DNA of 64,000 bases from Bacteroidales bacterium (GTDB lineage: Bacteria; Bacteroidota; Bacteroidia; Bacteroidales; UBA932): positions 62,001-126,000 of the forward strand of contig JAFSPG010000016.1 in NCBI GenBank assembly GCA_017443025.1. Reading direction: 5' to 3'. This document shows positions 13,146 to 58,760 of the stretch, piece after piece; the stretch's first letter is position 1; every line of letters begins with the position of its first letter. The notes beneath the pieces are model-generated. The model was not told the origin of the DNA, searched no databases, and saw nothing but the letters and a program-made list of their open reading frames with translations. The translations under genes and the position numbers were made by a program.

Positions 13146-13158
13146 TCACCCATAGGTT

Positions 13159-14175: not shown

Positions 14176-14193
14176 TAATAATTCTATAAAACT

Positions 14194-36431: not shown

Positions 36432-36436
36432 GGGCT

Positions 36437-37108
36437 ATGAAGAAGATAATTCTATATACAATGGTGATTCTTGCTGCTGCAGCCTGCACCAAGAATTCTG
36501 AGTACGACCAGACTCTTGGCCTTCTCTCAGCCAACAACTTACTTTCCGCCGACGGCGGCAGCACTCAGGTAGCTGTATTCTCGAACACATCCTGGACTGT
36601 TGAAATGGATCATCCCGTATCCTGGGCTTCCATCGACCGTTTCGGCGGCCACAAGACCGGACATCTTGTGTTCGATTATGAAATCAATTACGGCCGTGCC
36701 CGCCGCGTGAAACTCATATTCAAGGCCGGAGGCGAAACCCGGACGATGAATATGTATCAGCAGGCACGTTATGACGACTCCAAGTGTAAAATGAAACTCG
36801 ACGCCTCGTCAGTCGTAGCTCTGGCTGAAGGAAAGATTGAAGAAATCCCCTTCGAAACTAACCTGATTTACAACCTGGACGAGATGTTCCTCACCGTCAC
36901 CTATCCCGAAGGCCAGGAGCCCGAGGCTGACTGGGTAAGCCTTGTCAGCGTAGAGAAGGACAAAGTCACCGTTGAGATCGCGCCAAACACTACAGGTGTC
37001 ACCCGTATGGCCAACATGAGACTGTCCCACACGGATGCCGGTTCAATGAACTCCGAGGAGGGTGATACCATTTATTCTAACACTGTTACTGTCGTTCAGA
37101 CCTTATAG
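36437..37108 (+). CDS. BACON-domain surface lipoprotein
   Basis: A 223-residue lipoprotein (lipobox LAAAACT) with one clear BACON domain at about 30-120: SADGGSTQVAVFSNTSWTVEM, split as SADGGSTQVAVFS and NTSWTVEM, then TGHLVFDYEINY and RTMNMYQQAR. A second similar beta domain covers ~125-223 and ends TVTVVQTL. It is only two such domains, so probably a spacer or accessory glycan-binding protein between SusD and the larger lipoproteins. It lies 5 nt after susD. Confidence 0.78.
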   Translation: MKKIILYTMVILAAAACTKNSEYDQTLGLLSANNLLSADGGSTQVAVFSNTSWTVEMDHPVSWASIDRFGGHKTGHLVFDYEINYGRARRVKLIFKAGGETRTMNMYQQARYDDSKCKMKLDASSVVALAEGKIEEIPFETNLIYNLDEMFLTVTYPEGQEPEADWVSLVSVEKDKVTVEIAPNTTGVTRMANMRLSHTDAGSMNSEEGDTIYSNTVTVVQTL

Positions 37109-37112
37109 CATT

Positions 37113-39323
37113 ATGAAAAAGACAATTATACTAGCAATTACATCTTTTGCCCTTCTGCTGTGCCAGTCTTGCGACAAGGACAGCCACGATGTCTATGCTC
37201 CCGATGAGCTTGGTATGGAAGAGCACGACTTCTATGTAGAACAGGAAGGCGGAGATATCGAAGTTTCTTTCCTTGCTAACAAAAAGGGAAAAGTCTCTCT
37301 GATGAATCTCTCCGATGAATCCTGGGTGGATCTCGGACTCACATCGTTCAAGGCCGACGGCATCCTCCCTGTGCATATCCGTGCCAACGAAGGATTCCCC
37401 CGTCGCGCAGACCTCCTTTTCACCACAGACACTCGTAAGGATACCGTATCGGTTTTCCAGAAGGGTGCCATTGATGAGAAGTTCTACATTGCAATCAGTA
37501 CGATGATAGTTTATAACGGCACCGGCTTAGCCAATGTAGTAGATGCCGACATCAACGTACCTCTTAGCAATATCAAGATTGAAGTCCGCTTCTCCGGAGA
37601 TGATGAATGGATCAAGGATTGTACGCTTACCGAAGATAAGCTTACATTCACGACCACGGATAACCCGGATAAGAACTATATGCGCCGCGCCTCCATCGTG
37701 CTTACCTATACAGACGGATGGAGGGAAAAGCGTGAAATCGCAATCGAGGTTCTTCAGGCGCGCTCCGACAATAAAGTCGGTACCGTCTTCAGCGCCGAGA
37801 AACTTCGCACCATAGCTACTGTAGGTGGATATACCCTCCCTGATGACGCCCTTATCGAAGGTTACATCGTCAGTACGACCGCAGGCGGTAACGCCGGTGA
37901 TGCCATTGTTGATGACTACAAGCAGGGTACAGGTGTAATTGACTACACCCTTACCGACCGTACTGCATATCTCGAAAGCCCTGATGGCAAGTATGGCTTC
38001 AGACTCATCACTCCTACGGTTGAGGATAATACCTTTACCCGTTACAGCCTCATTCTGCTTAAGGCCGGTGGCGCAGTAGTGAAGAAATCATCAGGAGAAC
38101 CTGTGCAATACACTATCGAAGGCGTCAGTTCCAGCGACCTTTTCACCAGCACTGACGGCACATCCACAATGCCTTGGAAGGAAAAGAGCATCGCCGAGCT
38201 TACCGACGACGATATCAACACCCTCGTAAAGATCAAGGATTGCGAGATTGCGATGCGCAAGGGCCCCTTCACTCCAGTTAATGAAGGTTATACATCCCTC
38301 CACACCTACAACCGCCTGGCTAAATATCCTATCCTTATCCGCGACATCGAAGGTGGCAGTATGTATATGTTTACCAATATGACCTGCCCCTACCGCCGCA
38401 ATGGTGAGACTCTCCCTTACGGCAGCGGCAGCATTACCGGTATCGTGGTTCACGAGAATTACAAGAGCTTCGAGAAGGACGGCAACATCGGCCGTTATCA
38501 GCTCCGTCATCTCCTCCGCGAGGAAATCGAACTCGCAAAAGACTTCGCAGATAACTTCTCCGGTCTCATTACCGAGTTCCGTTATGCTAAATTCCCGGGT
38601 GAATTTGAGGAAACCTTACTTCCCGATGCAATTCTTGCAACTAAGGGTAACGGCGAGCTTTGCCATACCTATGGTTCGGTAAGCAACTTCTCTCCCTCCT
38701 ATTTCTATATCGGAAAATGCGGTAGCTCGAGGAAGGGTAAATATGAGGAAGGCGCTGGAATCGAACTTGACGAAGGTGGAATCTATGAGCCTTGGATTGG
38801 CAAGGAAGACGAGCAGAACACCGACGGCAAGGGCTGGTTCAAAGACAACCTCAAGATCAGCTGGTCCAACAAATACTGGTGGGACGGCGACAATTCCCGC
38901 GGTTATTGCTGGCTGGTCAACTTCAGCACCGAAGGTATCGTTTCCGACAAAGTCTCGATGCAGTTCGCAATGTACAACAACTCCCAGAGCGCCAGGTCAC
39001 CCCGTTACTGGAAGGCTCAGTACTCAATCGACAATATCGATACTGACGCCGCAAGCGACGACAAGTGGATAGACATTGCCGAATTCACCGTACCGGATGT
39101 TGCTATCTGGGCTACCCAGAACGACTGGCAGACCCTCGGCACCCGCGTATATGATTTCCCTCTTCCTGTTGAAATCCTCGGCCACGAAAGCGTAAGTATC
39201 CGCCTTATGCCACGCAATAACAAGGCGGCCGCCAAGTCTGAGGACTCTTACGACAGCAGCACAATCGCCAATAACAGCGGTTACAATACTATGGACTATT
39301 TTGCAGTACGCTACAACAAGTAG
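37113..39323 (+). CDS. Large surface lipoprotein with BACON-like and DUF5689-like domains
   Basis: A 736-residue lipoprotein (lipobox LLCQSC). Residues ~25-120 resemble a BACON domain (SFLANKKGKVSLMNL, DTVSVFQKG). Residues ~120-215 are another beta domain ending EIAIEVLQAR. About 220-480 looks like DUF5689, an OB-fold-like domain: ALIEGYIVSTTAGGNAGD, RTAYLESPDGKYGFRL and SITGIVVHENY are typical blocks. The C-terminal ~230 residues form a beta-rich domain with many Trp/Tyr, possibly glycan-binding. DUF5689 proteins often co-occur with EEP hydrolases in Bacteroidetes loci. Start 37113 is used because an upstream ATG lies inside the previous gene. Confidence 0.75.
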   Translation: MKKTIILAITSFALLLCQSCDKDSHDVYAPDELGMEEHDFYVEQEGGDIEVSFLANKKGKVSLMNLSDESWVDLGLTSFKADGILPVHIRANEGFPRRADLLFTTDTRKDTVSVFQKGAIDEKFYIAISTMIVYNGTGLANVVDADINVPLSNIKIEVRFSGDDEWIKDCTLTEDKLTFTTTDNPDKNYMRRASIVLTYTDGWREKREIAIEVLQARSDNKVGTVFSAEKLRTIATVGGYTLPDDALIEGYIVSTTAGGNAGDAIVDDYKQGTGVIDYTLTDRTAYLESPDGKYGFRLITPTVEDNTFTRYSLILLKAGGAVVKKSSGEPVQYTIEGVSSSDLFTSTDGTSTMPWKEKSIAELTDDDINTLVKIKDCEIAMRKGPFTPVNEGYTSLHTYNRLAKYPILIRDIEGGSMYMFTNMTCPYRRNGETLPYGSGSITGIVVHENYKSFEKDGNIGRYQLRHLLREEIELAKDFADNFSGLITEFRYAKFPGEFEETLLPDAILATKGNGELCHTYGSVSNFSPSYFYIGKCGSSRKGKYEEGAGIELDEGGIYEPWIGKEDEQNTDGKGWFKDNLKISWSNKYWWDGDNSRGYCWLVNFSTEGIVSDKVSMQFAMYNNSQSARSPRYWKAQYSIDNIDTDAASDDKWIDIAEFTVPDVAIWATQNDWQTLGTRVYDFPLPVEILGHESVSIRLMPRNNKAAAKSEDSYDSSTIANNSGYNTMDYFAVRYNK

Positions 39324-39326: not shown

Positions 39327-41252
39327 ATGAAAAAGTTAATTACAATAGCAATTCTTCTCCTGCCGGCGCTGTTTGCCTGCAAAAAGTCTTCCGATTCCGG
39401 AAGCGCTGTTGCAACTGGCGTGGTGCTGAGTATGGACAAAATCAACCTGAGTGTAGGCGAGACTGCCACACTAACTGCAGCCGTGCTTCCTACCTCGCTC
39501 AAGATGGGCGTGGTATGGAGTGTGCTTGACGGTACTTATGTTGACGTTCAAGGTGGCAAAATCACCGCCAAAGCTGAAGGCGTGACCTACGTTATCGCCA
39601 CTTCCGCAGACGGATACCAGAAAGCCGCCTGTATGGTGAGTGTGAATCCTCCGATTCAGTACAGCGTAACCATACTTGACGAAATCGGCCAGCCTGTCAG
39701 CGAAATATACGGCTATCCCAGTATGAATATGATTCTCTCTGCCTATACTTCAGACGGTGAGATACACGAATTAACCTGGAGCGTAGAAGATGAGGCAGCC
39801 GGTACAATCACCGATGACGGTCTTCTCGTCCTTGGAGCTTCTGCAAGCGCCTCAGAGGATTACATATATGATATTCAGTCATACGTCAAGGTAGTTACTG
39901 AGGATGGTTGCGGCTGCAAAGTTCCCGTCAGAAGCAGTCTCCTTAACGGAATCCGTATTGATGACGAATACTATCCCGCAGGATCGGTCATTGATTTGGA
40001 AGAGGAGCATACTTATCCTATCGCATTCCTGTATCAGGGTGCAGGTGAAAGCACGGAAGTCATTCCTGCCGGTGGGCTCAATATGGACCTGAGCGACAAT
40101 ATCGATTTCACAATTCAGGACATAGGCGGCACATATATGCTTGCAACCGGACCGAATACGGAGGTTTCTTCTATCCTCAGCATAAGCGCGGTAGGCTCAT
40201 TGGATAAGGTGGAACTTGTAGGACTCAATGTTCCTAAGTCCTATCCTGTCAAGGCGAAGTTCTTGGGTGGCTCTTCATCTACGCTGTCATTCGAATGGAC
40301 TGAAGGCGATGTTTCTGAAGACGGCACCAAGCCTTATACCGCTACGCTTTATAAGGATGCAGACTGCACCGAGGTTGAACTCTCTTATGAGATTCCTGCC
40401 GACGATGCTTGCTGGAACAGCCAGAAGCCGAAGCTCGTATTCAGCGGCCTTACCCCTGGAACCAATTATTGGTTTAAGGTAACCGATACGACTACCGGAG
40501 ATGAAAAGGAATCTGCGATAATCCCTGCCACTACCGAGGAATTCAATATTGTTATGGTCTCCGATACTCCTGCAGAGGAGGGAGACGTAATCCTTGCTGA
40601 AGACTTCGGTCAGCTCTGCTGGGGCGCCGATGAGATTTATCAGGCAGCCGGAATCGACGTTGTTTCTTCAAGTACCGGATACAATACCGACACTAAGAAG
40701 AGCTTCACATACCGTGAGGCCTACTCATTCGTCAAGACAACCGGACAGTACGCCCAGAGGAGTCTGACCGCGCAGGCCGTAGCCAAGAAGGAAGACGGAG
40801 TCCGCTTTGCCAAGTGGGCGCAGGGCCAGTATGCCCGAATTTATGTAGGCCCCGGATATCTCTTCCTGAGTACTTCCTCCTATGGAACCCACATCATAAC
40901 TCCTGAGCTGAATAATATTCCTGAAGGACAGACAGCAAAACTTCTGGTAACGCTTCACGCCTCCGGAAAAGCATCCGGTGGAGAGGCAGCACTCGCTGTC
41001 CAGCACGGTAAATCTTTCTACGAGATTTCCTCTAACAATCAGACCAATAAGAATAAACTCGACCTTACTTCGAATGTCCAGACAATCACTTTCAGTGACG
41101 GTATCACCAATCTCGAGAAGTTCGAGGTGACTATCGAAGGAGTCGTCAAGGGAGACAGGATTTGTTTCGGTCCTACCTCGGAAACAGCTTCAGGAGCCTC
41201 CAATATGATGATCCTCAGCGATATGACTATCACTATTGTTGAACTACAATAA
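39327..41252 (+). CDS. Modular lipoprotein A: Ig-like domains plus one FN3/jelly-roll-like module
   Basis: A 641-residue lipoprotein (lipobox ALFACK). Residues ~30-110 form a Big_2-type Ig domain (VLSMDKINLSVGETATL, GGKITAKAEG). About 110-300 are further beta domains. About 305-641 are one copy of a two-part module. The first part is an FN3-like half with TLSFEWTEGD, YKDADCTEVELSYEIPADDACW (split YKDADCTEVEL, SYEIPADDACW) and LTPGTNYWFKVTDTTTG. The second is a beta-sandwich-like half starting GDVILAEDFGQLCWGADE near 419 and ending MMILSDMTITIVEL. The module recurs twice each in the proteins at 41409 and 46234. No catalytic motif is seen; surface binding is inferred. Confidence 0.7.
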   Translation: MKKLITIAILLLPALFACKKSSDSGSAVATGVVLSMDKINLSVGETATLTAAVLPTSLKMGVVWSVLDGTYVDVQGGKITAKAEGVTYVIATSADGYQKAACMVSVNPPIQYSVTILDEIGQPVSEIYGYPSMNMILSAYTSDGEIHELTWSVEDEAAGTITDDGLLVLGASASASEDYIYDIQSYVKVVTEDGCGCKVPVRSSLLNGIRIDDEYYPAGSVIDLEEEHTYPIAFLYQGAGESTEVIPAGGLNMDLSDNIDFTIQDIGGTYMLATGPNTEVSSILSISAVGSLDKVELVGLNVPKSYPVKAKFLGGSSSTLSFEWTEGDVSEDGTKPYTATLYKDADCTEVELSYEIPADDACWNSQKPKLVFSGLTPGTNYWFKVTDTTTGDEKESAIIPATTEEFNIVMVSDTPAEEGDVILAEDFGQLCWGADEIYQAAGIDVVSSSTGYNTDTKKSFTYREAYSFVKTTGQYAQRSLTAQAVAKKEDGVRFAKWAQGQYARIYVGPGYLFLSTSSYGTHIITPELNNIPEGQTAKLLVTLHASGKASGGEAALAVQHGKSFYEISSNNQTNKNKLDLTSNVQTITFSDGITNLEKFEVTIEGVVKGDRICFGPTSETASGASNMMILSDMTITIVELQ

Positions 41253-41263
41253 ATCTCAACTAT

Positions 41264-41395
41264 ATGATTAAAAAACACACTTACACAGCCCCTTGGTGCG
41301 AACAGGAGTTCGTCATTGAGGAAGACTCTTTCATGAGTCCGAGCACCAGTCTCGATCCGCTACAGGATGACCCTGACACAATTGATTGGGATTAA
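41264..41395 (+). CDS. Small 43-residue protein of unknown function
   Basis: A short ORF, ATG 41264 to TAA 41395, lies between two large lipoprotein genes (11 nt after one, 13 nt before the next). The protein begins MIKKHTYTAPWCEQEFVIEE and ends DDPDTIDWD: basic start, acidic end, no signal peptide or membrane helix. Its layout (short, M-KK-Y-P start, acidic tail ending in WD) recalls small Bacteroidales ORFs that precede surface-protein genes. This is from memory of the pattern, not a named family. Tight spacing and a stop directly before the next gene support real translation. Confidence 0.55.
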   Translation: MIKKHTYTAPWCEQEFVIEEDSFMSPSTSLDPLQDDPDTIDWD

Positions 41396-41408
41396 AAAGT
41401 ATTGCCTT

Positions 41409-44400
41409 ATGAAAAAGATTCTACTCCTTTCAGCTGCAGTACTCAGCATCCTCGCAGCAGTTTCCTGTGCTAAGGAAGAACAGGAAACCGAAAATCGCGT
41501 TGTCAAATCAAAGGCACGCACTACTCTCACCGCCACCCTCCAGTCTTCCAAGACAGCCCTTGGCGACATGGTTGCCGGAGCCTGGCCTAACTTCTGGAAA
41601 ACCGACGACCAAATCAGTGTCAACGGTGTAATTTCTGACCCTCTCGATGCGAACTATGACGGCCAGACAGACGCTTCTTTCTCTTTCGAGGGGCTACTTA
41701 CTCCGAACTACTATGCTGCATACCCGGCATCTGCTGTTTCCGGTTACGACCAGGGCAATGCAACTATCACCGTGCCGGCTGTTCAGAACTTTGCAAACGG
41801 TACCTACGACCCTGCAGCATTCATAATGGGCGGAGTTAGCGACAGCGATGCACTTGTCCTTTCGCCTAAGGTCAGCGTAATTCACCTTAGCTTTACTGGA
41901 AGTGCTTCCATCTGCAAAATCAAATTGACAGGTGCTTCGGAAGCTGCCCTCAGCGGTACATTCTCAACTAACTTCACTGACTTTACTCCAGTCAATGTTT
42001 CCAACGTTGTTGAACTGAAAGCCGCAGACGCCATTCAGCTCCCTGCAGACTTCTTCATCAGCGTACCCGTTGGTCTTGTAGGCGCTCTTAATGTTACAGC
42101 TTACGACAGCGATGGCGGTAAAATGAGCAGGAACGCTACTGTCAAGTCTGCTCTTGCCGCCGGACAGGTTTACTCTCCTTCCGCCCTTGCTTATACACCT
42201 TCCTACGCAATCGAAGCTACTGCTGAAGGCATCACAAGCTCTACAGCTATTATCTGCTGGGACAACTGCGGCGATGAAGGACATTGCCCTGCTTATACCG
42301 TCAGCGTTTACTCCGATGCTGGTTGCAACGACCTTGTTGCCAGCTATGCGGTGCCCGCCGGCGATGCTTGCTGGGGCAACGAAGCACCGAGGTTCTGTAT
42401 CAGCGGCCTTGCAGCCTCTACGACTTATTATGTAAAGGTTATCAACGAGACCAAGGGCGCAGAAAGCAACATCCTGCCTGTTACCACTGCTGAATTCAAT
42501 ATAGTAGAGGTTTCCAACACTCCTGCAGAAGTTGGTGATGTCATTCTGGCTGAAGACTTCAGTGAACTCCGCTGGGATTGCGATATGATTGGTGTAGGTG
42601 CAGGCTTCTTCCCTACATCTCAGGATTCCTTTGCCAATAATGAAGTTGCTTCCTATCAGGCTGCTGCAACTTCCAACGAGAAGACTCTCGGCAGCCAGAC
42701 CACTGCGTTGGCTCTCAGCCGTCTTGCACATTGGGCACAGGGAGCAAAGAACAACTTGTACATTCACCCTGGTTATATCAAACTGGTCGGTAGCAGCAAC
42801 GTTACCCACTTGGTAACACCTGCTCTCAACGGTATTCCTGATGGAATGGTTGCTACCGTTGAGGTTGAAGTAACGGCCAGCAGGTATTACAGTGCTTCTT
42901 CCGATTCCTATGCAACAGATAAAGCCATTGTTGCCGTACAGACCGGTGATTTAAATGAACTTGTAGCCGGTGGCACCAATACGCTTGATTTGTCGTCGAA
43001 TATTGCAAACATCACCCTTCCCGCAGAAACCGCCTGGAATACCTTCAAGGTAACTCTAAACGGTGTTTCTCACGGAGATCGTCTGGCATTCGGTGCTCAG
43101 AAGGATATTAAGAAGAACGAAGCACGTATGAACATCAGCGATATGAAGGTTACCGTAAAGGCCCTTTATGATCCCGATGGACTTGCCGCAAGCGTCAAGA
43201 GCGTATCTTCCAGCACTGCCACCTTTACCTGGACTCATGCCGGTTCGGCTAGCCAGGACGTTGCAAAGCCATATAGAATCTCTCTCTACAGCGATTCAGG
43301 ATGCGAAAATCTTGTGGTTTCACACGAGATTGAAGCAGGTGCGTCCTGCTGGAACAGCAAGATTCCTTGCTTCATTATTGGCGGCCTCCAGCCTGCAACC
43401 ACTTACTGGTTTATCGCTGAGGACACTGAAAGCGGAGCAACTTCTGAGGCGGTCAACGTTACGACGGAAGACTTTACACCTGTAGATGCAACTACGGTTT
43501 CTGATGCTAGCATTGGTGATGTTATCCTTGCCGAAGACTTCAGTGAGATTGGCTGGGGCTCGGATGATATTGGCAGCGCTGCCGGTTTTGTTCCGGATAC
43601 AAAGGATACGACCATACCTTCCGGTATTAATCCCGAGGGTAGTTTTGTTAAGTATGATAACACCGGTAGCCGTTACTTCGGCGCAGGAGTTATCCTTGGA
43701 GACTCCCGTCTGTCGCACGGCTGGGGCTTCTTCGGCAACAGCTCGGTTTACCTCCACAACGGGTATTCGCGAGTAGGCGCGAAAGGCTCCGAAGGTAAGG
43801 CTGCTCGTACCCATATAGTAACGCCTGCTCTCTCCGGTATTCCTGAGGGTAAACTTGCGACCATCGAGGTGACTGTAACTGCCACGAAGTACGATAGTTC
43901 GATTGATATTTCCGTCTTCGCTGAAAAAGACCTTACTCTGAACTCAGAGACCAGTCCCAGCAGCTCCAATTATAGAAAATACACTGGTGCTTCTCTCTCC
44001 GACGGTCATAGCTTTGGCATAACGACAACTAGATCATGGGATACCAAGACGGTAACTCTGACCGATATCGACAGAGAGCATCAGCTGATTATCGGATCTC
44101 TTGAAAACTATAAAGATCCTGCAGATGGTCAGTACAAGAACCGTTTCTACATCTCTGATGTGAAGGTCAAGATTACCGACCTCATTGATGATCCTACCCG
44201 CAAGATCAAAGATGCAGCTTCCCTGATAGAGTTTGCAAACGATGTCAACGCCGGTGAAGTGGATTTGGCAGCCATCGTTACTAAGGATATCACCGTCTCT
44301 GCCGAGGAGGCCGACACCTTCAATTCTATCGTAGACTTTGCAGGTACCCTCGACGGTAACGGCAAGACCATTACCGGTCTTACCAAGCCTCTGTTCGACG

Positions 44401-46121
44401 ACCTTAAGGGTTCAGTAGCCGACCTTACCCTTAACTCCACGCTGAACATTACTGCAGACCAGCTGGATCTGGGTATTCTTGCCAATGTCCTTTCCGGAAC
44501 GGCAGACGGTTGTACTACCCAGGGTAGCGTTATCTTCAACGTCGCCGGCGGCGTTACCGGTGAGCACCACATCGCCGGTATGATCGGTCAGTCGCTAGAG
44601 GGTTCCTCTATCACCAACTGTACCAACGAGGCCAGCGTCACTAACGAAACTTCCTATGCCGGCGGCAACGGAAGCGAGTTGATGGTTGGCGGTGTACTGG
44701 GAACCTTCTGGGGCATTGATTTCACCATCTCAGGTTGCGAAAATACTGGTACTGTAATCAATAATGGCGCCTGGAATAAAGATGTTTCTGTAGGTGGTAT
44801 TATCGGCCAGGCAGGCAACTCGACTGGCAACTCCTGCACCATGACAGTCTCTGGCTGTACAAATAGCGGCATTGTTACCAACAACGGTCAAACCACCGAC
44901 GCCACTAACAGTGTCGGCGGTGTCATTGGCTGGATTCGCTTTGGTACATATAATGACAATTCCAATACCGGAACTATTACCAATTCCGGTAATGCCAAAC
45001 AAAACCGTGTTGGAGGTCTGATCGGTTATCTGGACCAGAATGCCACCTTTGACGACAACTCCAACAGCGGAGCCGTTTCCAATACCGGCACAGCATCTGA
45101 TATCAACTATGTTGGAGGCTTGCTTGGTCGTATGCAAACTGGTAACACCTTCAAGAATAATTCCAACAGCGGTACAGTTTCCAATTCCGGTGATGCTATC
45201 AATTACGTATATATGGGCGGAATCGTAGGCTACCTGGATAAGAATAACGTTATTTCCGATGCTGGAAACAGCGCCAAGTATAGACTCATCAATTCCGGTG
45301 ATATCGAGAATGGCGGCAGCGCCAAGAACATTTGCATCGGAGGTCTGTTCGGTAGGAATAGCAGCGGTTATTTCAATATGACCGGTACTTCCAGCAAGTA
45401 CAGCTACAACAGCGGAAACATCACCGATAATTCCGGCCCCGCCAAGAGCAATGGCGGAGATCTTAGCATCGGCGGTATCGCCGGTTACACCACTACTGGT
45501 ATCAAGACGCAGTATGCCCGCAATACCGGAACTATCTACGTTACTGGTGACAAGGGCAATACGTCAGTCAATGTCGGCGGTATCGGCGGCTGGATCAGCA
45601 ACGCTTCCTTCAACTTCAACAACTGTAGGAATACCGGTGATGTCATAGTTGACTGCACCACTACAGCTTCTATCTGGGCTGCAGGTATTGTTGCTTGTCC
45701 GAAACCTAATACCACCGAACATTATTACTGGCGTTCCAATGCGACTATTGATACGCACGCTGCAACGGTTGGCGGTGAGAATTACACGGCCGGTTTGATG
45801 GCTACTGTCGAAGGCAGCGATGCCAGCAGCACTTTCAAAATGACTGGACACAGACTGGCGGGCACCATCTGGGGCAGCAAGACTACGACTGGTCTCTTCT
45901 GCTGTACCAAGAATGCAAGCGCCTCCTTCTTCATCAAGAAAGGCGATGAGAAAAATCCTAATATGATTGCCCCCGGTACCGTGCTTAAGGACAACAATCG
46001 TGAAGTTACCATCAACGACATCACTGATATAACTATCGGTGTTCTTGCCGGTGGCGCCGGTTCCACCTACGATATTACCTCCGTAATAGCAGACGGACAT
46101 CTTGTAATCCAGGACTGGTAA
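41409..46121 (+). CDS. Modular lipoprotein B: fimbrillin-like domain, two FN3/jelly-roll-like modules, beta-helix repeats
   Basis: A 1570-residue lipoprotein (lipobox LAAVSCA; start 41409, MKKILLLSA). Domains: fimbrillin-like N-domain ~30-260 (SKTALGDMVAGAWPNFWKTDD, split SKTALGDMVAGAWP and NFWKTDDQISVNG); module 1 ~266-587 with GDVILAEDFSELRW at 376; module 2 ~590-930 with GDVILAEDFSEIGWGSDD at 703. Residues ~930-1570 are a Gly/Asn/Ser-rich array of VGGxIG-type units with NSGTVSNSG spacers. This suggests a GLUG-like parallel beta-helix adhesin. No enzyme motif is visible. It ends the first operon at a strong terminator. Surface attachment or substrate capture is inferred. Confidence 0.75.
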   Translation: MKKILLLSAAVLSILAAVSCAKEEQETENRVVKSKARTTLTATLQSSKTALGDMVAGAWPNFWKTDDQISVNGVISDPLDANYDGQTDASFSFEGLLTPNYYAAYPASAVSGYDQGNATITVPAVQNFANGTYDPAAFIMGGVSDSDALVLSPKVSVIHLSFTGSASICKIKLTGASEAALSGTFSTNFTDFTPVNVSNVVELKAADAIQLPADFFISVPVGLVGALNVTAYDSDGGKMSRNATVKSALAAGQVYSPSALAYTPSYAIEATAEGITSSTAIICWDNCGDEGHCPAYTVSVYSDAGCNDLVASYAVPAGDACWGNEAPRFCISGLAASTTYYVKVINETKGAESNILPVTTAEFNIVEVSNTPAEVGDVILAEDFSELRWDCDMIGVGAGFFPTSQDSFANNEVASYQAAATSNEKTLGSQTTALALSRLAHWAQGAKNNLYIHPGYIKLVGSSNVTHLVTPALNGIPDGMVATVEVEVTASRYYSASSDSYATDKAIVAVQTGDLNELVAGGTNTLDLSSNIANITLPAETAWNTFKVTLNGVSHGDRLAFGAQKDIKKNEARMNISDMKVTVKALYDPDGLAASVKSVSSSTATFTWTHAGSASQDVAKPYRISLYSDSGCENLVVSHEIEAGASCWNSKIPCFIIGGLQPATTYWFIAEDTESGATSEAVNVTTEDFTPVDATTVSDASIGDVILAEDFSEIGWGSDDIGSAAGFVPDTKDTTIPSGINPEGSFVKYDNTGSRYFGAGVILGDSRLSHGWGFFGNSSVYLHNGYSRVGAKGSEGKAARTHIVTPALSGIPEGKLATIEVTVTATKYDSSIDISVFAEKDLTLNSETSPSSSNYRKYTGASLSDGHSFGITTTRSWDTKTVTLTDIDREHQLIIGSLENYKDPADGQYKNRFYISDVKVKITDLIDDPTRKIKDAASLIEFANDVNAGEVDLAAIVTKDITVSAEEADTFNSIVDFAGTLDGNGKTITGLTKPLFDDLKGSVADLTLNSTLNITADQLDLGILANVLSGTADGCTTQGSVIFNVAGGVTGEHHIAGMIGQSLEGSSITNCTNEASVTNETSYAGGNGSELMVGGVLGTFWGIDFTISGCENTGTVINNGAWNKDVSVGGIIGQAGNSTGNSCTMTVSGCTNSGIVTNNGQTTDATNSVGGVIGWIRFGTYNDNSNTGTITNSGNAKQNRVGGLIGYLDQNATFDDNSNSGAVSNTGTASDINYVGGLLGRMQTGNTFKNNSNSGTVSNSGDAINYVYMGGIVGYLDKNNVISDAGNSAKYRLINSGDIENGGSAKNICIGGLFGRNSSGYFNMTGTSSKYSYNSGNITDNSGPAKSNGGDLSIGGIAGYTTTGIKTQYARNTGTIYVTGDKGNTSVNVGGIGGWISNASFNFNNCRNTGDVIVDCTTTASIWAAGIVACPKPNTTEHYYWRSNATIDTHAATVGGENYTAGLMATVEGSDASSTFKMTGHRLAGTIWGSKTTTGLFCCTKNASASFFIKKGDEKNPNMIAPGTVLKDNNREVTINDITDITIGVLAGGAGSTYDITSVIADGHLVIQDW
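44660..45650 (+). repeat. Degenerate tandem repeats coding the beta-helix array
   Basis: About eight to ten coding units of roughly 100-130 bp, each yielding VGG(I/L/V)(I/L)G and an Asn/Ser/Gly/Thr spacer such as NNSNSGTVSNSGDA. Recurrent DNA words include AACTCCAACAGCGG, TTCCAACAGCGG and TTTCCAATTCCGG. Units are diverged at synonymous sites, so the array is not a recent expansion. Confidence 0.7.
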
Positions 46122-46146
46122 TCTTACCTAATACTCTCTATAATTA

Positions 46147-46175
46147 AAGCCTTCTGGTAACAGAAGGCTTTTTTT
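46147..46175 (+). terminator. Terminator of the SusCD operon
   Basis: Perfect 10-bp stem AAGCCTTCTG / CAGAAGGCTT with loop GTAA, followed by TTTTT. The T-run overlaps the -33 box of the next promoter. Confidence 0.93.
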
Positions 46176-46204
46176 GTATTTTTTGTGCATTTTTGCTATT
46201 TTTG
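46173..46204 (+). promoter_or_regulatory. Promoter of the second operon
   Basis: TTTG (46173-46176), 20-nt spacer, TATTTTTG (46197-46204): exact consensus. The -33 box is the end of the terminator T-run just upstream. It also excludes in-frame ATGs at 46174 and 46213 as likely starts, leaving 46234. Confidence 0.83.
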
Positions 46205-46233
46205 TACATATTATGGTGAATTGTACAGATATT

Positions 46234-49200
46234 ATGAATAAGCTTGTAAAATTCCTTTTCGCGGCAGGTCTCTTTATGGCTCTGGCTGCCTGTTCCCGTC
46301 AATTGGAGGAAGATCCCTTTGTTTATGGAGGTAAGACAGTTACTTTCACTGCAACCTTCCAGCAAACCCGCACGGCCCTTGGTGAGCCCGAGGGCAGCAT
46401 GTGGCCCAATCTCTGGTGCGAGGGCGACGTAATCAGCGTCAACGGAGTGCTCTCCGAGCCCCTCTCGGCTGAAGCTGCCGGTGGAAGCACGGCTACATTC
46501 ACCGTCCATGGAGTATCTGCCCCTTACGAGGCTGTGTATCCTGCAGGAGTTACTGAAATCCCTACTGAACAGACTTATGTCGAAGGCAGTTATGATCCTG
46601 CAGCCTTTGTGATGCACGCATCATCGAATACTTTGGACCTGGACTTCGTTTCCGAAGTTTCTATCTTCAGGTTTACCCCTACCGGCGACGGTGGTGAGCT
46701 TATTTCCGGCGTTTACGTCAATGGTTACAAGATGACAGCCCCTAACGGCGTGGAACTCGGAAAGCCCTGGTTCGTTGTTATCGCTCCCGGTGATTACACC
46801 CAGCAGGGTATCCGTGTTATCGTCAGGGATACCGAAGGCGGCGCTATGCTTCGCAGCGCTGCTACTACAAAGGAATATGTGGCAGGAGGAATGTACAGCG
46901 CCTCGCTCGATTATGTCCCTGATCCGGAAATCCTGAACGTTTACGGTATCGTTACCTGTGGCGGTCAGGGCGTTCCCGACGTACTTGTCTCTGACGGCGT
47001 CAATATCGTCAAGACCAACTCCAAGGGCCGTTATGCCTTCCATTCCGATAAGAAATGGCAGAATGTATTCATCACCATACCTACAGGTTATGAGGCTCCT
47101 CTTAACGGAACGCGTCCCGCGTATTACAAACCTCTCGACGAAGATGAATTTACCCCCGAGCAGGCAGACTTCGAGCTCATAGAGTCTCCGGTCGAGGACT
47201 TCAGGCTCCTCGTGCTCGGTGACATCCATCTGGCCCGCCGTACCAACGACCTTGAGCAGTTCTCCAAAGTGTCGAAGACTATCCTCGATAATATTGACAA
47301 CGCTCCCGGAAAGGTATATGCCGTTACCCTCGGCGACCACGCCTGGGATATGTATTGGGTCAGCAATAATTTCAACCTGACCGATTTCGTCAGTACCATG
47401 GACGAGACCTTTGCTTCGAGGAACGTACCCTTCTTCTATACGATGGGTAACCACGACAACGAGATGGAGGTTTCCGGCGACGTCGACAAGGCTCTCGCAT
47501 ATATCCACAAAGTTGCCCCGACCTACTACTCATTCAACCTCGGCAAGATTCATTTCATCGTCCTCGACAATATGGATTTCACCGGAGTGCCTTCAGGACA
47601 GTCGCATCGAAGCGAGTACAAGAAGAACTTCACCGCCGACCAGCTGGAATGGCTGCGCCAGGACTTGTCATATGTGGATAAATCTACACCTATCTTCCTT
47701 ACTGCCCACGAGCCTATGGCCGTGCCGGACAATCTTGGCTGGAAAGAGGAACTTGACGGCGCAGACGCCGACAAAGAGGCCTTCCTTCAGATATTTGACG
47801 GCTACGACGTCAATATGATAACAGGCCATACCCACAGCATGTTCAACCGTACCATTGCGCCTAATTTCCACGAACATAACTACGGCGCCGTGTGCGGAAC
47901 CTGGTGGTGGTCGGGATACCTTACAGCCGGCATCCACATCGGCCAGGAGGGTACTCCCGGAGGAATCGGAATATTCGATTTCAGCGGCAAAAACTTTACA
48001 CATTATTATCAGGCTGCAGGACACGACAGGGATTACCAGTTCCGCGCCTATGACATGAACAAGGTCAAGGAATATGTTACTATGGACCTTGCCGGCGGAC
48101 ACTCGGACTTTACGAAATATTACAACTATATTCAGAACTTTGAATCTAACGTAATATATGTCAACGTCTGGGACTGGGACGAAACCTGGAATGTTGAAAT
48201 TATTGAAGACGGAAATCCTCTTGAGGTTACCCGCGTAGGCAGCTCCTATGATCCGCTTCACATTGTAGCCTTTACCGCTCCTCGCCTCAAGATATCCTCC
48301 GCAAGCGAGTCTCCTTCATTCCAGACACGAAAGTGGAATCACTACTTCAAGGCTACGGCGTCAAGCGCTACAAGTCCTGTTACCGTGAGGGTGACGGACC
48401 GCTACGGCAATGTATTCACCGAAGATATGACACGTCCAAAGGACTTCTCCATCGCCGAATACCGCAATGCTGCAGCCCGTACCGGCCTTGTTGCAACTCC
48501 TCTGTCCGAGAGCTCTTCTACCCTGGCCTTCAAGTGGACTCAGGGCGATTCCTCCGGCGATGACGTAACATCTCCTTACAAGGCTTCCCTCTACCGCGAC
48601 CAGTCCTGCACCGACCTTGTGGTATCGTTTGATATCCCGGCCGACCATAGTTGCTGGGATGGCAAGGGCCCTCGCTTCACATTTGCAGGTCTGGAGCCTT
48701 CCACCACCTATTGGTTCCAGGTACAGGATACCGTAAGCGGCGAGAAGTCAACGCCTATCAGTTCTACCACCAAGGACTTTACCGTGGTGGATCCTTCTAC
48801 CGTAAGCAATGCCGGTGTCGGCGATGTTATCCTGGCCGAGGACTTCAGCGAGATTGCCTGGGGCTCCGATATGCTGTGTACTGCTGCCGGTTTCATTCCT
48901 TCGGGTAAACCTCTTGAGCCGTTGAGCGGTGATATAACTACCAGTAATGGCTCGTTCCTGGTATACGACAATACCTCCGGTCGCATCTACGGCGAGACCA
49001 GGGTCACTTCCGATAAGAGGCTTTACAACTGGGGCTTTTTCGGAAATAGCTCGGTATTCTCTTATGCTGGATATCTGCGCGTGGGTGCATCGGACTCCGG
49101 GGCGCGCACACATATAGTATCTCCTGCCCTGTCCGGAATCCCGGCCGGAAAGATTGCGACGATTGATGTAACTGTTACTTCAAGCACTTACAACAGCGGT

Positions 49201-51273
49201 ACCGATGTCGCTGTGTTCATAAATGACCATACTTCCCTCACCCTTGTGTTGGCCCCGGACCAGAAGGAAAGTACTAATCCTAAGTTCTCAAGCTCCGGCG
49301 GTAAATATACTGGCGCTTCGCTTGTCAATGGCTATCCTCTCGATGCAGAGGTAAAGAGCTGGACCACTAAGACCGTCCGCATCGATGGTGTCTCCCGCAA
49401 CGACTGCCTTATCATCGGCTCCTACGAGAACATTGATACCAAGAACCGTTTCTTCCTTGACGATGTTAAGGTAGAGATTGTGAGCTTGGAAGACATTCCT
49501 GCGGTAAGCGCCAGTCTCGGCAAGGCGACATCATGTAGCCTTACCTTTACTTGGACTGAAGGTTATGGTGCTGCAAACGATGTCTCCAAACCTTGGACCT
49601 TTGCTCTATACAGAGATGCAGCATGCACGGATTTGGTGGTATCACATAGCATAGATGAAGGCAGTTCAAAATGGAGCGATAAACAGCCCAGATTTATTTT
49701 CGGCGGTCTGGATCCTGGTACTGATTACTGGTTTAAGGCGTTCGATACAACACCCGGAGAAGAAAAATTCTCTAATGTAGTCAAGGCAACTACGCTCTCT
49801 TTCACCCGTGTTGATGCTTCTCAGGTTTCAAATGCCGGAGTTAGTGACGTTATTCTGGCTGAAGACTTCTCCGAAACTTATGGGCCGGACGAGTGGGACG
49901 AAGCGGCAGGCTTTATGCCTACTGCAAGTGCCAGAAATTTGGATCCTCCGTCTGGAGAAAATCCTGCCGGCTCTTTTGAGGTGTATAGCAGTACAGGTAC
50001 CCGTTATTGGGGTAATAATGTCAGGATGGCACCAGCAGAAAGGCGTATGGCGCACGGATGGGGATTCTACGGTAACAGCGCCGTTTATTCCCGTTCCGGA
50101 TATTTCCGAGTGGCTACAACAAGCGGTCGTACGCACATCGTTACTCCTAAATTAGCCGGTATTCCTGACGGAATGAGGGCTACGATAGAAGTTACGGTCA
50201 CTGCTCTCCTGCATGAGAAAGCCAGTAACGTGGATGTTGCCGTATTCGTCAAAGACGATATGACGAAAAACTCCACAACTGATATAACAAGCGCCTCTTT
50301 CTGCAAATATACGGGAGGCTCTCTCTCCAATGGTTACGCTTTGGGAATGGCGAATACTACCCAGAAGAAGTGGTATACAAAAACAATTGAAATCTCAAAC
50401 GTAACAAATAAGCATCAGCTTGTTATTGGCTCTTTGAACAATGTTAGCGGGAAGAACAGGTTTAACTTGGCCGATGTCAAAGTTACCATTATTGCTCTCG
50501 AGGATCCTAATCGTACGGTCAAGGTGAGCGTCATCGGCGACAGCATTTCTACTTTTGCCGGCTGGTGCGACACCACCAAGGGCGGAGCCTACTATCCCAA
50601 GAGCGACTGCGATGTATCTTCCGTATCTGATACCTGGTGGTATAGATTAATCTACAACAAGTTGACGACCACCAAGTTCGAGAAGAACATATCCGCCGGT
50701 AACACCACTGTAGTACAGAATACTACTGGAGATTCAGGTGCCTACTGGTACGGCTGGGATTTTGGTACAAGACTCCAGACTCTCGGTATCGGAGACCCTG
50801 ACGTAGTCCTGATCCACGGCGGCACCAATGACTATGGCCACACCAGCTGGTACAGCACTTCAGAGGAACTGATTAATGGGGTAGCGATGAACGTATCATC
50901 TTTCCCTTCATCAGCACAGGAAGAACTTGATATTCTCTTTGAGCTGGCTGATGCTGCCACTACGGTAGATGCCGCCGATGCTCTTGATGGCACAACCTTC
51001 TGCGCAGCGTATATCCGCCTGATAAAGATGATTCAGACGCGCCATCCCGGTGTTAAGATCGTTTGCGTCATCGGTGATTATCTCAGAGGCGGCCAGGGCG
51101 ATGCCATCAAGCTCATTGCCAATCATTTTGGCGAGGATCAAGTACGCTATGCTGACATACTTGGAGAAAAAGTAACAATTGCCAAGTACGCCAACCCTCA
51201 TCCCAATGCTGCCGGTATGGCAACAATGGCTGAATTCATTTATTCCAAAGTCGGTTCCTGGATTGACGAATAA
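46234..51273 (+). CDS. Modular lipoprotein C: fimbrillin-like, metallophosphoesterase, two FN3/jelly-roll-like modules, SGNH hydrolase
   Basis: A 1679-residue lipoprotein (MNKLVKFLFAAG, lipobox LAACS). Order: fimbrillin-like domain ~25-245; MetallophosN beta domain ~250-315 (VYGIVTCGGQGVPDVLVSDG); calcineurin-like phosphoesterase ~320-540 with GDIHL at 329, LGDHAWD, MGNHDNE, TAHEP and GHTHS near 531; MetallophosC ~550-745. Then module 1 ~750-1085 (GDVILAEDFSEIAWGSD at 863) and module 2 ~1090-1425 (SDVILAEDFSE at 1204). An SGNH/GDSL hydrolase ends the protein (~1430-1679), with VIGDSIST, GGTNDYG and NPHPNAAG. All catalytic residues of both enzymes look present: a surface phosphatase and an esterase/deacetylase in one chain. 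Confidence 0.85.
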   Translation: MNKLVKFLFAAGLFMALAACSRQLEEDPFVYGGKTVTFTATFQQTRTALGEPEGSMWPNLWCEGDVISVNGVLSEPLSAEAAGGSTATFTVHGVSAPYEAVYPAGVTEIPTEQTYVEGSYDPAAFVMHASSNTLDLDFVSEVSIFRFTPTGDGGELISGVYVNGYKMTAPNGVELGKPWFVVIAPGDYTQQGIRVIVRDTEGGAMLRSAATTKEYVAGGMYSASLDYVPDPEILNVYGIVTCGGQGVPDVLVSDGVNIVKTNSKGRYAFHSDKKWQNVFITIPTGYEAPLNGTRPAYYKPLDEDEFTPEQADFELIESPVEDFRLLVLGDIHLARRTNDLEQFSKVSKTILDNIDNAPGKVYAVTLGDHAWDMYWVSNNFNLTDFVSTMDETFASRNVPFFYTMGNHDNEMEVSGDVDKALAYIHKVAPTYYSFNLGKIHFIVLDNMDFTGVPSGQSHRSEYKKNFTADQLEWLRQDLSYVDKSTPIFLTAHEPMAVPDNLGWKEELDGADADKEAFLQIFDGYDVNMITGHTHSMFNRTIAPNFHEHNYGAVCGTWWWSGYLTAGIHIGQEGTPGGIGIFDFSGKNFTHYYQAAGHDRDYQFRAYDMNKVKEYVTMDLAGGHSDFTKYYNYIQNFESNVIYVNVWDWDETWNVEIIEDGNPLEVTRVGSSYDPLHIVAFTAPRLKISSASESPSFQTRKWNHYFKATASSATSPVTVRVTDRYGNVFTEDMTRPKDFSIAEYRNAAARTGLVATPLSESSSTLAFKWTQGDSSGDDVTSPYKASLYRDQSCTDLVVSFDIPADHSCWDGKGPRFTFAGLEPSTTYWFQVQDTVSGEKSTPISSTTKDFTVVDPSTVSNAGVGDVILAEDFSEIAWGSDMLCTAAGFIPSGKPLEPLSGDITTSNGSFLVYDNTSGRIYGETRVTSDKRLYNWGFFGNSSVFSYAGYLRVGASDSGARTHIVSPALSGIPAGKIATIDVTVTSSTYNSGTDVAVFINDHTSLTLVLAPDQKESTNPKFSSSGGKYTGASLVNGYPLDAEVKSWTTKTVRIDGVSRNDCLIIGSYENIDTKNRFFLDDVKVEIVSLEDIPAVSASLGKATSCSLTFTWTEGYGAANDVSKPWTFALYRDAACTDLVVSHSIDEGSSKWSDKQPRFIFGGLDPGTDYWFKAFDTTPGEEKFSNVVKATTLSFTRVDASQVSNAGVSDVILAEDFSETYGPDEWDEAAGFMPTASARNLDPPSGENPAGSFEVYSSTGTRYWGNNVRMAPAERRMAHGWGFYGNSAVYSRSGYFRVATTSGRTHIVTPKLAGIPDGMRATIEVTVTALLHEKASNVDVAVFVKDDMTKNSTTDITSASFCKYTGGSLSNGYALGMANTTQKKWYTKTIEISNVTNKHQLVIGSLNNVSGKNRFNLADVKVTIIALEDPNRTVKVSVIGDSISTFAGWCDTTKGGAYYPKSDCDVSSVSDTWWYRLIYNKLTTTKFEKNISAGNTTVVQNTTGDSGAYWYGWDFGTRLQTLGIGDPDVVLIHGGTNDYGHTSWYSTSEELINGVAMNVSSFPSSAQEELDILFELADAATTVDAADALDGTTFCAAYIRLIKMIQTRHPGVKIVCVIGDYLRGGQGDAIKLIANHFGEDQVRYADILGEKVTIAKYANPHPNAAGMATMAEFIYSKVGSWIDE

Positions 51274-51288: not shown

Positions 51289-52665
51289 GTGAAAAAGATA
51301 CTTGTATTAGCCGCGATTCTGCTTGCCCTGCCAGTAATGGCCGGCAGCCGGAATATTGATATCACCAAGATGGGCGCCAAGGAAGGCCCTGGAAGGGACA
51401 ACGCTCCCGCCATCCAGAAGGCTATCGATAAGGTCAGCCTTGCCGGCGGTGGAACCGTCACCGTCCCGGCGGGCGACTTCATTACCGGCCCCGTTGAGCT
51501 GAAATCCGGCGTCGAACTCCATCTCGAGATGGGAGCCCGGCTCCTTGGGCTTCCGGACATCGCCGCATATGAGAAGGCTCATTTTGTATACAAGAGCGGC
51601 AGAAAATCACCTCATTCTGGGCTGATCTATGCTCATGGACAAGAGAATATTGCCATAACCGGCCTCGGAACCATCGACGGACAGGGAGGTCATCCGGCTT
51701 TCAAGGTAGGAAAGGCTGATCCGGGCGGAAGACCAATGATCATCCTTTTCCGCAATTGCCGGAACGTGACGGTCAATGACGTCCGTCTCGAGAATTCCGC
51801 TCATTGGGTGGAGTATTATACCGATTGCAAGGGTGTAAGGATAAGCGGCATCAAGGTCTATTCACATTGCAATTACAATAACGACGGAATAGACATCGAG
51901 TCCAGCGACGTAGTAGTTACCAATTGTATCTTCGACTGCGAGGACGATGCCATCTGCCTGAAAGGCGCCGGCGGCAATCTCTGCGAGAATGTAAGCGTAA
52001 GCAATTGCGTAGCCGCCTCCAACTGCAATGCAATAAAGCTTGGAACCGGTTCTTCAGTCGGCTATCGCAACATTACAATCAGCGATATCACCGTACGCGC
52101 CGCCAGTGAAGATAATTTCAGACACTGGTCCACAAAAATCAAGGGCGTTACCGCTCCCGTCACCGTAATCTCCGGCATTGCCGTCGAGGTGGTTGACGGC
52201 GGTATCTGCGAGAATGTAAACATCAGCAATATCGCCATGCGTGACGTCCAGACGCCTATTTTCATACGTCTTGGGCGACGAGGAAGGGATTGTTCCAAGA
52301 GCCGGATGAAGGGCATTACAATAAGCGGGGTAACTGCCGTTGCTGAGAGTATGATGTCCAGTTCCATCACCGGAGTACCCGGGCTTTATCCCGAGGACAT
52401 CTATCTGTCGGATATAGACATTACAGCTCCAGGCGGAGGTACTGCCGATATGGCAAATATAGTAGTTCCTGAAGCGGAGGATACCTATCCGGAGAACAGG
52501 AAACTTGGCACCTGCCTCCCAGCAGGAGGCCTATATATCAGGCACGCCAATAATGTGTTCCTCTCCAATGTCAGTTTCCACTTCCGCAAACCTGATGAAC
52601 GTCCTCTCATCGTAACTGATGACTGCAAGAATATAGTTGGATTAAATCAGTGCAGCTCACGTTGA
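51289..52665 (+). CDS. Glycoside hydrolase family 28 (polygalacturonase-like), GTG start
   Basis: A 458-residue right-handed beta-helix hydrolase of the GH28 family, which cleaves galacturonate- or related uronate/rhamnose-containing chains. The signal peptide is MKKILVLAAILLALPVMAG. Catalytic blocks: NNDGIDIESS (the NTD-type Asp) near residue 200, CEDDAICLKG (the DD pair) near 222, and CNAIKLGT (the RIK-type substrate site, Arg replaced by Ala). The start must be GTG 51289, since a stop codon lies immediately upstream in frame and no ATG fits. It is 15 nt after lipoprotein C. Confidence 0.88.
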   Translation: MKKILVLAAILLALPVMAGSRNIDITKMGAKEGPGRDNAPAIQKAIDKVSLAGGGTVTVPAGDFITGPVELKSGVELHLEMGARLLGLPDIAAYEKAHFVYKSGRKSPHSGLIYAHGQENIAITGLGTIDGQGGHPAFKVGKADPGGRPMIILFRNCRNVTVNDVRLENSAHWVEYYTDCKGVRISGIKVYSHCNYNNDGIDIESSDVVVTNCIFDCEDDAICLKGAGGNLCENVSVSNCVAASNCNAIKLGTGSSVGYRNITISDITVRAASEDNFRHWSTKIKGVTAPVTVISGIAVEVVDGGICENVNISNIAMRDVQTPIFIRLGRRGRDCSKSRMKGITISGVTAVAESMMSSSITGVPGLYPEDIYLSDIDITAPGGGTADMANIVVPEAEDTYPENRKLGTCLPAGGLYIRHANNVFLSNVSFHFRKPDERPLIVTDDCKNIVGLNQCSSR

Positions 52666-54548: not shown

Positions 54549-54563
54549 TAATACCATAGAATC

Positions 54564-55040
54564 ATGAAAAAGATTATGTTTACTCTTGCTACTCTCGCAG
54601 CTCTTTTCGGATGCTGCAACAAAGGAAGTGAACTGGTTAACCCCGAAGGTTACGTGATGGAACATCCTGCCATTGACGTAGCTGATCCTATCGCCGTGGC
54701 CGACTGGTGGTGCAAGAATCTAGGCTTTACCATTACAAAGCAGAAAGACGATGATACCCATACCACTTTCATCGTCGATGCTTCCGGCCGTATCGCCATC
54801 GAACTTTATCGTGCAAGGACTCAGCCTGTGGCTCCCGATTATGCTTCGATGGACCCCCTCACACTTCATTTCGGCTTTACTTCAAAGGACGTGGATGCAG
54901 ATATAGAGAAAATGCTGGCAGCCGGCGCTACTCTCGTGGTTCACGAGAAGGCTCCCGGCTTCGACGGTGCTATGATGAAGGACCCCTTCGGAATCTCCAT
55001 CCAGTTCGTAAAGCGTGAAAAGAGCGTTCTGTTAAAGTAA
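54564..55040 (+). CDS. Secreted VOC (glyoxalase-like) lipoprotein
   Basis: A 158-residue protein of the vicinal oxygen chelate superfamily with a lipoprotein signal (MKKIMFTLATLAALFGCC). Possible metal ligands are His in EHPAIDVADP, Glu in IAIELYR and His in LTLHFGF; the position usually filled by a final Glu appears as Gln in GISIQFVK. Cytosolic relatives are common, but export as a lipoprotein is not. Its place between the lyase and GH39 genes suggests it acts on a reactive uronate intermediate, though that is inference. It could also be a binding protein. Confidence 0.75.
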   Translation: MKKIMFTLATLAALFGCCNKGSELVNPEGYVMEHPAIDVADPIAVADWWCKNLGFTITKQKDDDTHTTFIVDASGRIAIELYRARTQPVAPDYASMDPLTLHFGFTSKDVDADIEKMLAAGATLVVHEKAPGFDGAMMKDPFGISIQFVKREKSVLLK

Positions 55041-55055
55041 ACAAACAACTGTAAT

Positions 55056-56471: not shown

Positions 56472-56492
56472 TCATTTTAAATTATAACTGCT

Positions 56493-57296: not shown

Positions 57297-57321
57297 CTCA
57301 ATGTCATTTATAGCAATTTAA

Positions 57322-57350: not shown

Positions 57351-57351
57351 T

Positions 57352-58755: not shown

Positions 58756-58760
58756 TCATT

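Follow-up and report, generated by a model that had tools for sequence, protein, structure and literature searches.

A repeated unit of an FN3-like half and a predicted jelly-roll half in neighbouring lipoproteins of a Bacteroidales polysaccharide utilization locus

We describe a protein unit of about 340 residues that is spread in five copies over three neighbouring lipoproteins of a Bacteroidales genome (P1 with one copy, P2 and P3 with two each) and that recurs in related loci. The window, by which we mean the whole 64,000-nucleotide stretch of DNA analysed, holds the five units at 40224-50505; a preliminary description made from the letters alone had given the span as 40239..51000, which is corrected here to a beginning at about 40224 and an end at 50505. 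Each unit, referred to as F-J, joins an FN3-like half of about 113 aa (F) to a second half of about 225 aa (J) (Table 1). From its profile similarities, J is best read as a branch with long loops within the choice-of-anchor J / T9SS jelly-roll superfamily: its fold is likely ordinary and its family is unnamed. As to function, we lean with modest confidence towards a non-catalytic role, in which F-J, a divergent jelly roll on an FN3-like spacer, would serve a polysaccharide utilization locus as an arm that holds the glycan or provides spacing.

Table 1. The F-J units, their host lipoproteins and the adjoining genes, in window positions
Feature	Position	Strand	Remarks
Upstream genes	31846..39323	+	SusC-like, SusD, BACON protein, DUF5689 protein
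P1 lipoprotein	39327..41252	+	lipobox LFAC (by eye), Big_2 (aa 30-104), unnamed middle, one F-J
F half, P1 unit	40224..40562	+	FN3-like
J half, P1 unit	40563..41249	+	class A: WAQG
P2 lipoprotein	41409..46121	+	lipobox VSC, N-terminal domain of ~265 aa, F-J-F-J, GLUG-type C-terminal repeats
F half, first P2 unit	42189..42515	+	
J half, first P2 unit	42516..43172	+	class A
F half, second P2 unit	43158..43496	+	
J half, second P2 unit	43497..44189	+	class B: WGFxGNS
GLUG-type repeat region, P2	44190..46118	+	
P3 lipoprotein	46234..51273	+	lipobox LAAC, P2-related N-terminal domain, calcineurin-like phosphoesterase, F-J-F-J, SGNH hydrolase
MetallophosN + Metallophos + MetallophosC, P3	46945..48417	+	aa 238-728
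F half, first P3 unit	48463..48801	+	
J half, first P3 unit	48802..49494	+	class B
F half, second P3 unit	49480..49824	+	
J half, second P3 unit	49825..50505	+	class B
SGNH/GDSL hydrolase domain, P3	50521..51270	+	aa 1430-1679; nearest solved chains 4m8k, 4nrd
Downstream genes	51289..59678	+	GH28, heparinase II/III-like lyase, VOC-like, GH39, KduD-like SDR, EIIC-GAT, KduI

That five copies lie in the proteins at 39327, 41409 and 46234 (one, two and two) had been proposed before, and both BLASTP and profile searches bear it out. The three proteins match one another down to E 5.6e-142, and a profile of the five J halves finds its five places in the window, each at E 3.5e-94 or lower in the own genome, matches that hold by construction since the profile was built from these halves. 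With the same profile no sixth J copy was found in the own genome (93.49% complete) at E <= 0.1. A candidate sixth J start in the DUF5689 protein at 37113 (LAKDFADNFS) was rejected, as the J profile at full sensitivity gave no match there to E 10. The copies are homologous and diverged at synonymous sites, as had been said: over the ten pairs, whole-unit amino-acid identity is 30-52% and synonymous sites are saturated (pS 0.68-0.85). The described start of the second half, (G/S)DVILAEDF, is found in all five copies as GDVILAEDF or SDVILAEDF. Other motifs turned out to be less general. The signature RLxHWGFxGNSxVYxxxGYxRVG occurs in three of the five, the P1 unit and the first P2 unit having WAQG...PGY instead, and F.WT.G with YWFK, which had been ascribed to every copy, is replaced by CWDN and YYVK in the first P2 unit.

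A scan of 84,980 species genomes yielded 44 relative loci, all titled Bacteroidales or Bacteroidia. A ruminant stomach compartment appears in eleven of the 44 titles and a RUG label (which we take to stand for rumen uncultured genome) in a further 19; one title names horse faeces and the others are silent. The window and these loci contain 112 J domains, of which 104 are full-length, one protein being counted twice in the overlapping loci L042 and L057. F precedes J within 20 residues in 102 of the 104; the two J domains that have no preceding F (L052, L062) start about 45 bases or less from a contig end. Altogether 114 units were found, 101 of them from the window and loci L033-L076; loci L001-L032 were excluded from all unit counts, some of their genomes being the same as those of the named loci. 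Alignment A4 comprises 93 of the 101 units after removal of those at least 90% identical to another, whereas the tree was built on 100 distinct units and the conservation counts on 99 distinct J halves. The five-row profile matches, at E <= 0.001, 11 of 37 genomes of the own genus (own included) and none of 24 other genomes of the order. A 29-row profile at E <= 1e-5 matches 9 of 393 genomes of the order and 2 of 395 of the phylum, the own genome being counted in both, and its matches beyond the own genus are partial.

None of 39 candidate stretches from viral contigs encodes an F-J relative, and a search of plasmids gave no match to the unit. Among phages a single record was found, MT838177.1 (unannotated, UNVERIFIED, from human faeces), with 29.7% identity over 72% of the unit. 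This 5.6-kb record (L130), labelled Bacteriophage sp., carries F-J on one ORF (J at E 1.9e-32, F at E 2.3e-19) beside an ORF that we presume by eye to encode a FecR-type protein. It looks like a bacterial fragment, and it places the F-J unit in a human gut sample. In the open-access literature, no title or abstract among the matches listed deals with the unit.

The F half is FN3-like. Against fn3 (PF00041, cut-off 25 bits) the F halves of P2 (26.3 bits) and P3 (29.5 bits) pass and that of P1 (19.3) falls below, and 72 of the 93 aligned units match at E <= 1. Both F cysteines are kept in 69 of 99 units and at least one in 98, a pattern compatible with a disulfide.

For the J half, Pfam gives nothing for the window copies at E <= 1. 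No CBM family appears among the best 25 of 40 Pfam matches for the 93 units, nor in the Pfam matches of P1-P3. Thus the earlier remark that no existing family could be named for the second half holds for Pfam, both in the window and across the 93 units. The profile search of Pfam and Bacteroidales that had been suggested leaves J unnamed but also reveals kin, with J a divergent member of a known jelly-roll superfamily. NF052644 is matched by 27 of the 93 units at E <= 1 (best 2.4e-9), in its jelly-roll part, choice_anch_J by 10 (best 6.7e-4), and MAM weakly by three (best E 0.084). The cut-off of NF052644 (T9SS_DNase_Rie, 260 bits) is far from reached, the best of ten units scanned singly scoring 36.9 bits, and nothing passes it in 149 genomes of the order, own included. 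Choice-of-anchor J (NF038128, cut-off 30 bits) is present in 85 of 119 genomes of the order; it has no match in the own genome, and none for P1-P3 at E <= 1.

Profile-profile comparison indicates common ancestry of J with the choice-of-anchor J / cleaved-adhesin superfamily. The 99 J sequences align to a choice_anch_J set with hhalign probability 91, E 1.1e-6 and score 45.9, compared with 14.7 for the reversed control and at most 15.3 for 15 column shuffles; this alignment spans J columns 100-219 only, that is, the C-terminal half. The choice_anch_J set was drawn from 25 of 30 fetched loci, five that had no usable stretch having been dropped. Against a T9SS-type jelly-roll set of eight rows, J reaches probability 99.3 and E 4.2e-20 over columns 7-222, a comparison that is not independent because the set owes seven of its eight rows to searches with the J profile. 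The T9SS-type set itself matches choice_anch_J at 96.4 (E 1.1e-9), while the F half scores 0.3% and 0.2% against the choice_anch_J and T9SS-type sets. A choice_anch_J profile of nine sequences matches the gingipain chains 4itc, 3m1h and 3km5 (E 9.5e-41 to 1e-27), which we take to be K domains. Eight distant J-profile matches outside the own genus were scanned against NCBIfam. Five of them match NF052644 at E <= 0.01, among them L112, L113, L115 and L123 at E 1.1e-26 to 2.7e-16 over the jelly-roll part; L109, L110 and L111 match neither NF052644 nor choice_anch_J at E <= 0.01. The distant matches align with J at ILxEDF, GW.G.KVY, G..K.G, TPxL and RFFIDD. Among solved structures, J alone finds at best a ribosomal protein (E 0.28), the whole unit finds FN3 proteins with its F half (best E 0.0011) and nothing better than E 0.37 with its J half, and the mixed T9SS-type set finds nothing in the PDB to E 10. 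The jelly-roll fold of J is thus a prediction from these profile relationships. By eye, an M6-type protease (L115, L126) and another protein (L125) seem to have a J-like domain set into an FN3-like stretch, behind its first strands.

The likeness to known systems can be made more precise. For NF052644, the family of the T9SS-dependent surface endonuclease AS87_RS02955, we compared J with the family together with its non-equivalog relatives. The motif order is alike, with an ILxEDF start, GW.G..VY...G..K.G, TP.L and an RFF(I/L)DD(I/V) end. The J rows are longer, however, at 214-231 aa (two) against 141-153 aa for the shorter relatives (five), stay under the family cut-off, and sit on lipoproteins after an FN3-like half, whereas the NF052644 relatives belong to proteins with T9SS tails. 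Choice-of-anchor J (NF038128) and the gingipain adhesin share with J the homology of the C-terminal half, an EDF-like start and a DD(I/V) end, but J has loops of its own (WGFxGNS or WAQG, KYTG). A parallel in lay-out is BT2081, which is described as an Ig-like part (residues 21-114) followed by a jelly roll (115-361) with a putative carbohydrate pocket and a predicted membrane anchor (PMC2954218). It resembles F-J in its Ig-like and jelly-roll lay-out, similar length, predicted membrane anchor and Glu/Asp calcium pair, but BT2081 is solitary and lacks the repetition and the enzyme partners of F-J. No model for a BT2081-type family is among the Pfam matches of P1-P3 or the best 25 of 40 for the 93 units.

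The copies are old. In the unit tree, one of several quick trees made without bootstrap, 67 of the 100 units cluster by protein and position into five clades: the P1-type units of single-F-J proteins (ten rows, support 99), most first P2-type units (16 rows, support 100), most second or third P2-type units (13 rows, support 98), most first P3-type units (17 rows, support 99) and eleven second P3-type units (support 100). A mixed set of 11 rows (support 100) unites second P3-type units from other species with units that are second in P1-type proteins (L065, L066). The usual groups do not include both P2-type units of L044, nor one each from L037 and L055, and L036 and L039 have first P3-type units that pair with each other apart from the rest. 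Such clustering by position with exceptions implies long-established copies that for the most part have stayed in position, with occasional exchange of units. The 67 rows are grouped in the same way by a tree of F alone and a tree of J alone, with four changes in each, the least possible total; the P1 group fails to form one clade in the F tree (two changes), and support for the second-P2 group in the J tree is 76. As the groups were themselves taken from the unit tree, these trees show the agreement of the two halves and are not independent proof of the groups.

Conservation in J follows the same positional groups, which cover 67 rows drawn from the unit tree and leave out 32 of the 99. Each of the five groups has 89-116 J columns with at least 90% conservation, partly as a reflection of closer kinship, but the columns in which all five agree on one residue, at 90% or more, number only 18. 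P1 and first-P2 units show WAQG and PGY, the other three groups WGFxGNS and KYTG. Few acidic or His positions are common to all groups (E13, D14, H104). With so few columns in common, one common ligand site, as the shared glycan-binding element suggested earlier would have, is not evident, and the pattern argues for distinct surfaces at the different positions and against a single binding site copied five times. Two positions stand out: Glu13 is E in 99 of 99 J halves, and Asp221 is D in 87 and E in 8 (100% D in four groups, 90% in one). BT2081 binds a calcium on its convex face with Glu122 near the start of the jelly roll and Asp351 near its end (PMC2954218), and another report mentions a similar calcium site in the cleaved-adhesin family (PMC4882317). 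E13/D221 of J resembles the BT2081 pair by position and residue type only, an analogy that suggests a putative structural calcium site in J.

As had been proposed, one unit is combined with different partners: Big_2 in P1, GLUG-type repeats in P2, calcineurin-like phosphoesterase and SGNH hydrolase in P3, and more in relatives, with one to three units per protein. In P1 the unit is C-terminal and not between other domains. The repeat region of the window's P2 has a sole match, Peptidase_M26_N, under its cut-off, and Glug is matched by 13 of 15 aligned members of this region. The phosphoesterase of P3 shows GDIH, GD, GNHD and GHTH by eye, presumably the phosphoesterase motifs known under these names. 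Seven relatives picked for unusual partners were scanned one by one, and four have a phosphoesterase- or esterase-type partner: L034 and L060 combine BACON, F-J and MetallophosN/MetallophosC parts (no central Metallophos at E <= 0.01), L059 is an F-J-Exo_endo_phos fusion, and L070 has F-J-F-J plus a BD-FAE-like esterase. L066, L067 and L068 have no such partner. A kinship of the lone Exo_endo_phos gene at 29906 to the L059 fusion was rejected because their best BLASTP match, over 23 residues, has an E of 0.11. The idea of a plug-in module therefore survives in part: the partners are varied and some exchange has occurred, but the units are mostly old position-specific paralogues that have not been freely exchanged.

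SGNH hydrolases are expected to have an Asp three residues ahead of the final His. GTND and the final HPN or HPT are kept in all 13 aligned copies of the P3-type domain, which were chosen by their GDSIS motif; the Asp is seen in two of the 13 (L051, L060) and is absent in the window's P3. The N-terminal domain of P3 is 29.7% identical to that of P2. Mfa_like_1 matches 3 of 35 aligned members of this domain (best E 0.0011) and does not match the domain of the window's P2, so 'fimbrillin-like' would be a lead only. The domain (window 41409-42146 and 46291-46860) appears as a widespread module in its own right, with 50 ORF stretches from the window and the 44 loci that match it over more than 150 aa, overlapping loci perhaps being counted twice, and at least one is joined to GLUG-type repeats where F-J is missing (L073, ~10735-14574).

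The genes around the lipoproteins follow one another on one strand at close spacing in the order SusC-like, SusD, BACON, DUF5689, P1, P2, P3, GH28, lyase, VOC-like, GH39, KduD-like, EIIC-GAT and KduI. The gene at 31846 we take from its sequence to be SusC-like; VOC-like is likewise an assumed name, as is KduD-like for a protein that a family scan returns as a short-chain dehydrogenase. An EIIC-GAT (PTS permease) gene lies between the KduD-like and KduI genes of this Bacteroidales uronate locus (window 57352-58755). The gene content of the relatives was read by TBLASTN (at least 60 bits) from 44 loci of at most ~17 kb, often cut by contig ends, so that absences mean little. P3-type matches occur in 25 loci, P2-type in 19, P1-type and DUF5689 in 12 each, BACON in 11, SusD in 10, SusC in 9, lyase in 8 and GH39 in 7, and GH28 in 16 (11 at 77-84% identity, five at 29-34%). 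The 12 P1-bearing loci have DUF5689 in all 12, BACON in 11, SusD in 9 and SusC in 4, in the window's order; L072 has P1 and then GH28, L040 P2 and then GH28. The locus is partly conserved in relatives. Distant F-J loci (L068, L069, L074, L075) lie by other SusC/SusD genes with 26-40% identity to the window's, so the unit occurs in more than one kind of locus.

The lyase, encoded at 52650, is nearest to the heparinase III chain 5jmd (E 1.5e-149), which we take to be BT4657. A review describes BT4657 as a PL12 lyase of the B. thetaiotaomicron heparin/HS locus that acts on low-sulfated and unsulfated heparin (PMC9067506). The own genome (93.49% complete) has four sulfatase-family matches, three of them over the cut-off, and none of the four is on the window's contig. 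A sulfated-GAG substrate, which we had considered, is not supported on a contig that has no sulfatase match. The combination of lyase, GH28 and GH39 (window 51289-56471) on such a contig may point to a non-sulfated uronic-acid glycan, and our best guess at the substrate is a glycan of that kind, heparosan-like or, given GH28, pectic.

Glycan-holding is the most economical reading because the hosts are lipoproteins, have SusC/SusD neighbours and carry enzyme partners. F would be the spacer and J a divergent jelly roll with a structural calcium site; together they would form an old building block of surface lipoproteins in one polysaccharide utilization locus, in which exposed J loops would hold the locus's uronic-acid-containing glycan. 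P1 would then act as a surface glycan-binding protein, and P2 and P3 would keep the GLUG part and the phosphoesterase/esterase beside the substrate and the SusC/SusD pair. The three proteins have the setting of surface glycan-binding proteins, with a lipobox in all three and a SusD family member at 34926. Those of the B. thetaiotaomicron heparin/HS locus, such as BT4661, are likewise lipoproteins beside SusC/SusD and a heparinase-III-like lyase, (PMC9067506), but P2 and P3 differ by their extra GLUG or enzyme domains. A bolder version, which we regard as tentative and as falling short of an even chance, makes J a new family of carbohydrate-binding modules that has three or more specificity classes, the five copies bringing phosphoesterase, SGNH esterase and GLUG scaffold to different parts of one uronic-acid glycan. 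The classes would be WAQG, WGFxGNS/KYTG and a third, which some species have in place of WGFxGNS/KYTG at the second P3 position.

Other explanations account for part of these observations. Tandem F-J might be a pure stalk that lifts the GLUG, phosphoesterase/SGNH and Ig parts off the membrane and binds nothing. The variable number of units, one to three per protein, would fit, as would several columns conserved throughout (E, F, W, P, G) that recur in the wider set and look structural. We nevertheless think it unlikely, since the 89-116 group-conserved J columns, including group-specific polar and aromatic ones, exceed the need of a bare spacer, even with groups that are fairly young, and since the P1 unit is C-terminal. 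Five copies in neighbouring genes on one strand could instead suggest docking, in which F-J joins the three lipoproteins to one another or to SusC/SusD in one surface complex, and position-specific conservation fits distinct partners. The MAM domain, weakly reached by three of 93 units, is reported to have been implicated in receptor multimerization (PMC5104691). Against this, some loci have no P2 or no P3 (L072, L040), so a fixed three-part assembly is not required, and docking too is improbable in our view.

Finally, J might itself be catalytic. The Riemerella type protein of NF052644 is reportedly an endonuclease, and for this reason a purely non-catalytic role is not certain. The matches to the jelly-roll part of this family in 27 of 93 units (best E 2.4e-9) and the recurrence of phosphoesterase partners are in keeping with a nuclease like the protein behind the family's name. 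The scores are far below the 260-bit cut-off, though (best 36.9 in ten units), acidic or His positions common to all groups are few, and E13/D221 would fit a structural calcium site, which makes a catalytic J very improbable.

J lies outside Pfam and yet is a repeated part of Bacteroidales surface machinery in ruminants and other guts. With J placed in the superfamily, annotators have a family to build, and biochemists can express a defined unit of ~340 residues. If this unit binds glycan, that would explain how a phosphoesterase, an esterase and a GLUG scaffold are brought to the same polymer by one locus.
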